From positions 1-30,231 of the IMG/VR virus record IMGVR_UViG_3300046822_000067: a stretch of DNA of 30,231 nucleotides, one strand, 5' to 3'. Under the pieces are notes generated by a model. That model saw only the letters and a program-made list of their open reading frames with translations, was not told where the DNA came from and did not search any database. Origin of the DNA: a virus. The first letter of the stretch is position 1. Every line of letters begins with the position of its first letter. A program made the position numbers and the translations under genes. Below are positions 4,700 to 28,180 of this stretch, piece after piece.

Positions 4700-4847
4700 C
4701 GGCCCGACGAACGGATAGTATTTCCGTCAGTCTGAAAGTCGGGAGACCGCGCTAACTATCAAGTTTTTGGCCGGGTCTATCAAGCGGGCGCCGCCGCCAG
4801 CCGCTAACTGTCAGGGAGCGCGGCTAGGGTAGCTCCCGAACCCCCGG
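4700..4847. other. Non-coding region with short direct repeats
   Basis: No gene is seen. CGCTAACTRTCA occurs near 4749 and 4802 and CTATCAAG near 4757 and 4777, and GGGAGC/GCTCCC (4814-4819, 4832-4837) can pair. The arrangement suggests regulator binding sites or a structured 5' leader for the downstream membrane protein gene. Confidence 0.35.
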
Positions 4848-4899
4848 TCTCCTTGCACGGGCTGCCGCGCGCTTACCCGCAAGGCGTTGTGCAAGGAGA
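4848..4899 (+). promoter_or_regulatory. Hairpin that can sequester the ribosome binding site of the 4906 gene
   Basis: TCTCCTTGCAC (4848-4858) is perfectly complementary to GTGCAAGGAGA (4889-4899), an 11-bp stem with a 30-base loop. The downstream arm contains the AAGGAG Shine-Dalgarno site (4893-4898) that lies seven bases before the TTG start. When folded, the site is buried, so translation of the next gene should depend on opening of this stem. Confidence 0.55.
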
Positions 4900-25846: not shown

Positions 25847-28180
25847 TCAGGCGATCAGCGTCGCGATGTTGACGGGCGGCACTTCGATCATCGCCAGCCG
25901 CATGGTCATGATCAGCGCGACCGGCCCGTCGATCTTGTTCTCGGGCCGCTCCTTGCGCGGGAAGACCTGGTCCTTGCCGTCGAGCCGCGCGGTGACGTTG
26001 CTCATCATCCAGGTCATCGGGTCGTTGGCGTCGCAATTGTGCTTGAGCCGGCCGGCATCGATCAGCGCTGCGACCTGCTTCATCGGCTCGGTGAAATTGG
26101 CCGCGGTCTGCTGGAACTCCGAGACGTTGGCGCCCTTCGCCATCAGCCGGGTCATCAGCATGGTCGCCTGCGCCGGGTCGAAGGTGATCTCCTCGACGGT
26201 GTACTTCCGCCTGATGTCGTCGATGTCCTCCTCGATCCGCCCGAAGTCGATCATGTTGCCTTGCGTCAGGATCAGCTTTGGCGGGTCGGCCAGCGCCCAG
26301 CCGCGGTAGTGGTCCTTGCCCGGCTCCTCGACCACATCCTCGGGGAGGTAGTATCGCCCGAAGGTCGCGAAGGAACCGTCGCCGAGGTCGAACAGGATCT
26401 GCATCGCAGCGATGTCCTGCTTCGACGCCAGGTCTAGCGCGATCTTGCAGCGCTGCCCCTCGAAGTCTTCGAGCCGCAGCTCGGCATGGCAGCCGGCCCA
26501 GCTCTGCATGTTGAAATAGGCGGCCCTCGCGTTCACCCATAAGTTCAAATGCTTGGTCTTGAACCGGCCCTGCTCGCGCGTGTTGCGCACCGCTTCCCGC
26601 TGGCGGGCGAGGAGGAACTCGGCCGACACCGAGACATCGAGGTTCGGGTTCGCCTTGGCGATCGCTTCGGGCGCCGTCCAGTCGTCTTCTGGAATTAGCT
26701 GGCGCAAACTCCCATCATTAAGGAGTTCGCAACGGCGGACCGCGCAGGTAGTCGAGTGCGCGTTGTAAACTTTCCTCAGTATCGCCGAAAAGGCCGATTG
26801 CCGAATTGCATTGTCGGCAGAGCAATCCCCGAATAGTTCCTGTGCCGTGGCAGTGATCGACGCATAGAGATTTTGGCACGCTACCGCAGATGGCGCATTT
26901 GCCATCCTGTTGTTCGCACCACTCTCGATATTCCTCTGCTGAAACTCCGTAATCGACGAACCGCCGGTGAGAGATGATCCAATGTCTCGCTTCTGGTTTG
27001 GCTCGCCACCGTTGCCCCGCAGCTCGCTTTCGGTCGGGATTTTTTCGATCCCATTCGAGCCGCTTGGCGATTGAGCGGGCCTTCCGCTCCGGATCTTCGT
27101 CGAGTAAGGCTTGCTCGTAACAGGTTCGGCATAGTCCGCGCGCAAGCGCACCCCTGTCGGGATGTCGCTGGCATTTTTTGAGCGCGTTCTCTTGCCGCCA
27201 GCGGTTATAGCAAGGTCGGCACATACCTCGCCCCACAGCCGGCTTATCTGGGTGGGCGTCACACATCCGCCGCGGTCGCATATGTGATCCAGTCGCGCTA
27301 ACGCATCTTCCGGATGGAGTGTAAGAGAATAGGGTTGCGTGTCGACCGTGTACTCGATGAAGAACTTCTCGTCGTCCTCGATGACGCCTTCGAGGATCTT
27401 GCGGCACGTCAGGATCTTGTCGAAGCACGGCCCCGCCAGGTTGTCGCCGGCGGTCGAGATCACCCACATCAGCGGCTGCTCGCGCGCGCCTTGGCCGGTC
27501 AACATCGTGTCGTATTGATCGGCGCTGTCGTGCTCGTGGTACTCGTCGATGATCGCGCAGCTCGGCATCGCGCCGTCGCCCGGCTTGCCGATCATCGGCT
27601 CGAAGCGCGACCCGTTGCCGACGATGTTGATGTTCGACGAGTTGACCGCAATCCCGAAATGCTGGCGCAGGTCCGGTCGCCCTTCCGCCATCTGCCGCGC
27701 CGGCCGGAACACCTCCCACGCCTGTTTCTCGGTCCCGGCGCCCGAGTAGATTTCCGCCCCGTGCTCGCCATCGGCGCAGAGCATGTACAGCCCGACGCCG
27801 GCCGACAGGATGCTCTTGCCGTTCTTCCGCGGGACGATGGTCACCACCTCACGGAAGCGCCGCTTGCTATCTGATTTCCGCAGCCAGCCGTAAGCGTTGA
27901 CGAGCACAAAGCACTGCCAGCCTTCGAGCCGGATGGTCTCGCGCCGCGCCGCCCAGGCGCCCTTGGTGTGCGGCAGACGCTCGATGAACCGGCACACCCG
28001 CTCGGCCGTCAGCGGCTCGAAGCGGTACGGCCCGGCGGACTCGCCATCGCGGTCGCGGACCCACCGATCAACCGCGAGCCGTTCCCATTGGCACGCCGGC
28101 CGACGACCCGAGCGAACATCGGCGGCATAGGCCTCGGCGAGAGCAACATGGGGGTGCTCCATCGCCCGGCCGCGCGCCAT
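25847..28180 (-). CDS. Terminase large subunit, interrupted by an in-frame insertion
   Basis: The 777-residue frame is about 200 longer than related terminases. The N-terminal ATPase has a deviant Walker A (VPRKNGKS, residues 116-123) and Walker B (CAIIDEYHEH, Asp212-Glu213), then a coupling region (MWVISTAGDNLAGP). The C-terminal RuvC-like nuclease has IALDLASKQDIAAM, EITFDPAQATMLM and a late DGPVALIM, each with an acidic residue. The sequence that should run YTVD...PEDDWTAPEA is split after about residue 290 and resumes at 497. The 207 codons between are not terminase-like, and another frame encodes an HNH nuclease there. Both halves share one frame with no stop, so the interruption leaves a continuous ORF. 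The start overlaps the small terminase stop (TGATG). Confidence 0.85.
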   Translation of the reverse strand: MARGRAMEHPHVALAEAYAADVRSGRRPACQWERLAVDRWVRDRDGESAGPYRFEPLTAERVCRFIERLPHTKGAWAARRETIRLEGWQCFVLVNAYGWLRKSDSKRRFREVVTIVPRKNGKSILSAGVGLYMLCADGEHGAEIYSGAGTEKQAWEVFRPARQMAEGRPDLRQHFGIAVNSSNINIVGNGSRFEPMIGKPGDGAMPSCAIIDEYHEHDSADQYDTMLTGQGAREQPLMWVISTAGDNLAGPCFDKILTCRKILEGVIEDDEKFFIEYTVDTQPYSLTLHPEDALARLDHICDRGGCVTPTQISRLWGEVCADLAITAGGKRTRSKNASDIPTGVRLRADYAEPVTSKPYSTKIRSGRPAQSPSGSNGIEKIPTESELRGNGGEPNQKRDIGSSLTGGSSITEFQQRNIESGANNRMANAPSAVACQNLYASITATAQELFGDCSADNAIRQSAFSAILRKVYNAHSTTCAVRRCELLNDGSLRQLIPEDDWTAPEAIAKANPNLDVSVSAEFLLARQREAVRNTREQGRFKTKHLNLWVNARAAYFNMQSWAGCHAELRLEDFEGQRCKIALDLASKQDIAAMQILFDLGDGSFATFGRYYLPEDVVEEPGKDHYRGWALADPPKLILTQGNMIDFGRIEEDIDDIRRKYTVEEITFDPAQATMLMTRLMAKGANVSEFQQTAANFTEPMKQVAALIDAGRLKHNCDANDPMTWMMSNVTARLDGKDQVFPRKERPENKIDGPVALIMTMRLAMIEVPPVNIATLIA
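26693..27313 (-). mobile_element. Insertion in terL carrying an endonuclease VII-type gene
   Basis: About 621 bp (207 codons, a multiple of three) break the terminase between a LHPED and a LIPED sequence, which suggests a short similarity at both ends. The insert is AT-richer than its surroundings and is almost filled by the HNH gene (564 bases). That leaves too little room for a normal group I intron core, and no intein motifs are visible in the terminase frame (no HN-Cys/Ser end). Limits are estimated to within a few codons. Confidence 0.7.
26718..27281 (-). CDS. Endonuclease VII-type HNH homing endonuclease inside terL
   Basis: A 187-residue nuclease in the -1 frame relative to the terminase. 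It starts with two zinc-finger-like repeats (MCDAHPDKPAVGRGMCRPCY, Cys7/His10/Cys21/Cys24, and KCQRHPDRGALARGLCRTCY, Cys37/His40/Cys51/Cys54) and a charged helix. The catalytic domain matches recombination endonuclease VII: CAIC (129-132), VDHCHGTG (Asp142-His143-Cys144-His145) and RGLLCRQCNSAIG (Cys155, Cys158), then the GDTEESLQRALDYL helix. The start could also be ATG 27266. The host-gene interruption and the nuclease class point to homing, with terL as target. No clear ribosome binding site is visible. Confidence 0.85.
   Translation of the reverse strand: MRPRRMCDAHPDKPAVGRGMCRPCYNRWRQENALKKCQRHPDRGALARGLCRTCYEQALLDEDPERKARSIAKRLEWDRKNPDRKRAAGQRWRAKPEARHWIISHRRFVDYGVSAEEYREWCEQQDGKCAICGSVPKSLCVDHCHGTGTIRGLLCRQCNSAIGLFGDTEESLQRALDYLRGPPLRTP

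Follow-up and report, generated by a model that had tools for sequence, protein, structure and literature searches.

An endonuclease VII-type HNH gene inserted in a phage terminase large subunit gene whose reading frame stays open

Can the large subunit of a phage terminase work with a long insertion inside it, or must the insertion be removed first? The terL gene encodes the packaging motor and is essential in tailed phages. In the stretch of DNA analysed here (an IMG/VR virus record of 30,231 bp, hereafter the window) this gene encloses an HNH nuclease gene in a shifted frame. The splice-less, frame-preserving insertion described before is found in a dispensable methylase, and little is lost there if the host gene stops working. 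Since terL is needed for packaging, the present locus offers a sharp test: either the host protein works with the insert, or the insert is removed.

The terminase gene and its insert

The following features are discussed.

25847 to 28180, minus strand: terL, HK97-type large terminase (phrog_9), a single open frame of 777 aa
27341 to 28180, minus strand: 5' part of terL, ATPase core (codons 1-280), with Walker A PRKNGKS and Walker B IIDEYHEHD, predicted mostly at pLDDT>90
26693 to 27340, minus strand: insert of 648 bp or 216 codons (terL residues 281-496), stop-free in the terL frame
26718 to 27281, minus strand: endonuclease VII/HNH gene in the -1 frame, 187 aa from the ATG at 27281 or 182 aa from the ATG at 27266
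26702 to 26730, minus strand: strong hairpin at the insert's 3' edge, about -15.7 kcal/mol, whose loop contains the stop codons of the HNH gene
26660 to 26693, minus strand: candidate co-conversion tract, ~34 nt adjoining the insert on its 3' side
25847 to 26692, minus strand: 3' part of terL, lid subdomain and RNase H-like nuclease (codons 497-777), with the invariant acidic residues D583, D589, D668 and D751

The terL gene was assigned to the HK97-type large terminases by its matches to PF03354, PF20441 and phrog_9, its invariant residues and the structural match of its product to 6z6d. Domain matches cover residues 88-254 (TerL_ATPase) and 507-763 (TerL_nuclease), and the invariant catalytic residues of both the ATPase and the nuclease are all present. 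With the insert excluded, pairwise comparison with relatives gave dN/dS values of 0.06-0.11, the same range as for uninserted pairs; both parts of terL are intact and under strong purifying selection. The terS, capsid/protease, portal and head-tail adaptor genes lie near terL. At the opposite end of the window, an int-alpA RNA (RF02996, 38.6 bits) was found at 4817-4884 on the plus strand.

In the AlphaFold2 model of TerL, residues 4-280 and 500-765 mostly score pLDDT>90 and the inserted residues mostly <50, a low score that comes partly from the absence of homologues in the alignment; the residues encoded by the insert are predicted to be disordered. The best structure match of the model is HK97 TerL (6z6d; Z=30.2, rmsd 9.8, 464 residues). 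Isolated ATPase-domain structures match it on to about residue 550, which places the insert between the ATPase core and the lid and not exactly at the border between ATPase and nuclease.

The edges of the insert were set by gapless DNA alignment with relatives that have an empty site (L002-L006, L007-L011 and L015). The 648-bp segment is missing from all of them and the flanks join at the identical point in each, at the sequence GTCGA[T/C]CC or GTGGA[T/C]CC. Placement is ambiguous by 1 nt, 26694-27341 being equivalent to 26693-27340. A preliminary description of this DNA had put the insert at 26693-27313, about 621 bp; its edge at 26693 is exact and the other falls 27 nt short, and the statement that the length is a multiple of three holds for the true length established by this alignment. 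A possible repeat of the target site in the 5' end of the insert (HPEDA against PEDDW) was unconvincing (shuffle P 0.02-0.1).

All the other terL relatives examined, more than 150 in total, lack the insert, including viral contigs up to 96% identical to the window. It was absent from each of about 100 homologues with measurable spacing in viral and genome contigs, and in a second scan, which overlaps little with that set, 80 of 80 loci align straight through the insertion site. None of the relatives examined carries the 216 residues as ordinary terL sequence. Further carriers were found neither in viral contigs (terL and HNH scans), genome contigs (terL scan) and phage records, nor in 385 genomes from the class of G001, for which an Aurantimonas record was used as centre. 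With the window as the only carrier found, the mobility of the insert is putative.

Some trace of homing may be preserved next to the insert. At 3 of the 4 informative sites in the ~34 nt on its 3' side the window has alleles of the L007/L009 clade, while over the whole of terL 81 of 93 sites agree with the L005/L011 clade. This stretch is the sole run of two or more L007/L009-type sites among the 93 (permutation P=0.002, post hoc), and offers weak evidence of co-conversion during homing.

That an endonuclease VII-type HNH gene lies in the -1 frame of a terL gene that stays open had already been proposed, and is borne out by the 777-aa frame and by a match to PF02945 (E=2.3e-22; 79.1 bits against a curated cut-off of 23.6). 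The HNH protein also matches phrog_2914 (E=2.7e-41). It has two N-terminal zinc-type Cys/His motifs, CDAHPDKPAVGRGMCRPC and CQRHPDRGALARGLCRTC, and an intact core DHCH...RGLLCxxCN, which is common to other phage endonuclease VII proteins; comparison with these proteins showed its catalytic and zinc residues to be conserved. The gene ends in TAA-TGA at 26720, and the ribosome-binding sites ahead of both candidate start codons are weak. About 60-75 nt of the insert precede it and about 25 nt follow it. In terL phase, TCA-AAA-AAT at 27173-27181 (minus strand) is a possible -1 slippery sequence into the HNH frame. IMG/VR yielded no close relative of this HNH, and the 385 genomes mentioned above hold only weak relatives.

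The open terL frame and the role of chance

The terL frame reads positions 2-3-1 of the HNH codons and has no stop across the 648 bp. The preliminary description had expected about eight stops, which is too many: about two are expected given the HNH protein, and about four from GC-matched free-standing genes. When synonymous codons of the HNH gene were permuted, the terL frame was expected to hold 1.8-2.0 stops, with P(0)=0.045-0.07; resampling of codons from phage or insert usage gave P(0) of 0.10-0.15, and shuffling of codon order gave 0.016. In the GC-matched free-standing HNH relatives the density of such stops is 2.1 per 100 codons, or about 4.4 in 207 codons. The third frame had been reported open for 97 codons and offered as part of the explanation; over the full insert, however, it is interrupted by 7 stops (6.6-6.7 expected within the HNH part). 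An open frame together with a length divisible by three (a chance of 1/3) has a joint chance of roughly 0.02-0.05. The openness of the frame is a modest departure from chance, and the joint figure is suggestive, not overwhelming. About 90 loci with HNH relatives were compared, and only the window and three loci where the HNH is nested in an intein have both a host frame without stops and a long host ORF on each side.

Of the codons with T at the second position, the share that end in a purine (NTR/NTN) is 0.40 in the window HNH, against 0.39 in GC-matched free-standing genes and about 0.30 in intein-nested ones. Since the window HNH does not carry the codon signature of the intein-nested genes, long-term dual coding finds no support in it, and because its NTR/NTN value is like that of free-standing genes the insertion is probably young.

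A recent insertion could have inactivated terL, leaving a phage that is defective or transient and dependent on other copies, its open frame being a matter of luck. Such a course of events would agree with the single occurrence, with the lack of codon-level adaptation, with the probability of 0.05-0.15 of an open frame given the HNH protein, and with a bulky insert that adjoins the lid subdomain. However, purifying selection on terL is ordinary and the active sites are intact in both parts, the fitting length and the open frame would coincide only at the joint chance of about 0.02-0.05, and the remaining packaging and head module is present. The absence of decay counts for little here, because a very recent insertion would show none yet. 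On this evidence we consider inactivation unlikely.

Splicing signatures and the proposed reading

In group I introns the 5' exon ends in U, the intron ends in G and there is a conserved core, and group II introns have a GTGYG 5' end and core domains. In the insert region no Rfam model of either group matched, whether at the gathering score or, with lax filters, at E<=5, and the Rfam searches revealed no structured intron core. The ends of the insert break the group I rule, since its last base is T and that of the 5' exon is A or C, and the insert begins with (C)ACGC, not with the GTGYG of group II. To the preliminary description the insert seemed too short for a group I core plus an ORF, and only about 85-100 nt lie outside the HNH ORF. 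Its failure to see intein motifs was borne out: in the terL-frame translation no intein model matched for P0001 (NCBIfam and Pfam) or P0002 (Pfam), and neither splicing motifs nor a Hint fold were found, while the same libraries matched the controls L158 and L083.

Introns are known to split other phage terL and virion genes (PMC10448857, PMC3706429), and the RNA of the insert folds somewhat more stably than shuffled versions of it (z=-3.2, from 20 shuffles only). Both points would suit an unrecognised minimal intron that removes the insert from the RNA and yields a normal 561-residue TerL. Against this intron stand the missing Rfam match, even under the lax search, the short sequence outside the HNH ORF, ends that fit neither intron group, and the open host frame, which an intron does not need; we regard it as improbable. 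A gene in pieces would be another outcome, in which each part of TerL is translated as a polypeptide of its own and the two then assemble, as NrdA reportedly does in Aeromonas phage Aeh1, where mobE splits the host gene into two separate proteins. Phage genes split by insertion of homing endonucleases are known and the insertion does lie at a subdomain boundary, but no stop in the terL frame closes the upstream part and the sequence of the downstream part offers no good start with a ribosome-binding site, which makes separate polypeptides very improbable. An assembly artefact or chimeric contig, which a single metagenomic record might bring to mind, is hardly credible for a complete gene with a clean in-frame insertion, an otherwise gapless terL and matching neighbours on both sides.

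The preliminary description had left a tolerated insertion, splicing by a minimal element and inactivation of terL side by side. We favour the first, and the other two are less favoured possibilities, because there is no splicing signature, the stop-free frame has a fitting length, terL retains its selection and its residues, and a precedent exists (PMC11855218). Our reading, held with moderate confidence, is that a homing-type HNH insertion is read through in frame by terL and that the terminase is most likely made with the insert inside. The clean insertion, the two open frames, the HNH motifs, the purifying selection on terL and the absent splicing signature are observed; the read-through product and its activity, the internal start of the HNH gene and homing are steps that we infer.

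In such a scheme, a homing gene of the endonuclease VII family would have inserted cleanly in the loop of terL that joins the ATPase core to the lid/nuclease part. It could persist without a splicing element, since the length is a multiple of three and the terL frame of the HNH coding sequence happens to be, or was kept, stop-free. Ribosomes that start at terL would then make a 777-residue terminase with a disordered insertion of 216 residues, and initiation in the -1 frame inside the insert would give the HNH nuclease. The nuclease may cut the empty site of related phages, and the element would spread when the break is repaired from the occupied copy.

Comparison with known systems

HNH relatives were also found nested in the -1 frame of other open terL frames, where the host frame encodes a mini-intein. 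The TerL mini-inteins with a hidden HNH are the following.

L083, 2315-4759
L158, 939-3377
L167, 555-2930
L171-L250

A scan with HNH proteins of the L083, L158 and L167 type gave at least 564 relatives. In 80 of the 80 loci examined an open terL contains the HNH in its -1 frame; the terL frame has 0 stops and the third frame 9-26, and intein end motifs are present at one or both ends. This dual-coding TerL intein family appears to be widespread and is seemingly a larger class than the case of the window. Isolated mycobacteriophages, Phlyer, Athena and Chandler among them, have an annotated or known TerL intein with an unannotated HNH; in Phlyer (L282, NC_012027.1) the HNH match at 2501-2890 lies in the -1 frame inside the annotated intein at 2217-2978, and the Chandler terminase has an HNH match as well. 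The TerL intein of Chandler (gp6; TerL6-f) splices in a reporter, according to passages of PMC5050341 in which no mention of a hidden HNH was found; it may be reported elsewhere. On the contig shared by L167 and L198, an intein with a hidden HNH lacks the N-terminal splicing block and follows a partial terL repeat, being either a decaying intein or a rearrangement. In DotProduct (L281, NC_042336.1) a LAGLIDADG-like protein at 889-1341 lies in a shifted frame of the open methylase gp64 frame (PF00961, E=0.002, below the cut-off), and is possibly a hidden homing gene of another family.

What the TerL inteins share with the window is an open terL that contains an endonuclease VII-type HNH in the same -1 frame. 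They differ in that their terL frame holds a recognisable self-removing intein and in that the terL family and the site are different, whereas the insert of the window has no splicing domain. Together, they suggest that endonuclease VII genes are easily overprinted, the -1-related host frame being poor in stops. A stop in that frame needs a T at the second codon position followed by a purine, and endonuclease VII proteins appear to hold few such codons.

Free-standing endonuclease VII/HNH genes, such as Gordonia phage Miskis gp39 and that of Klebsiella phage kpssk3, encode proteins of the same family with the same motifs. Unlike the gene in the window they are placed between other genes, and in nearly all of them the corresponding alternate frame contains stops. 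The mobE gene in nrdA is likewise a homing endonuclease gene placed directly in a conserved phage gene with no intron, but the Aeh1 host gene is said to be split in two, while the terL frame of the window runs through. Genes in pieces have been reviewed (PMC2988022).

The closest likeness is to the ShiLan domain, a stop-free insertion of 202 aa in a mycobacteriophage DNA methylase with an out-of-frame HNH (Arsenault, Gosselin and Gogarten 2025, PMC11855218; earlier description in PMC9957025). It shows neither an intron nor an intein signature and is patchily distributed; its authors concluded that the protein probably keeps the insertion, and noted that the methylase is non-essential (PMC11855218). 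Both systems have an insertion of about 200 codons, a host frame with no stops and an HNH in a shifted frame, with the same offset as far as the coordinates in PMC11855218 tell. Moreover, both show no intron or intein signature, an in-frame product predicted to be disordered, and relatives with an empty site. The window HNH belongs to the endonuclease VII family. Between its stop and the 3' edge there are about 25 nt, whereas the stop of the ShiLan HNH lies in the last 4 nt. For the ShiLan domain a patchy distribution is described, and for the insert of the window one carrier was found.

We give only slight credence to the idea that hidden-HNH insertions such as these two are removed by some unrecognised minimal mechanism at the RNA or protein level that can do without any known intron or intein core, which in the window would restore an essential motor protein. 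As far as sequence and prediction go, the insert matches the ShiLan domain in every feature open to comparison, and is an insertion of the same kind in terL. The host gene sets the two apart, that of ShiLan being a dispensable methylase and that of the window being essential for packaging. In the literature searched, where the prior case concerns one non-essential gene, this is the first such insertion found in an essential gene.
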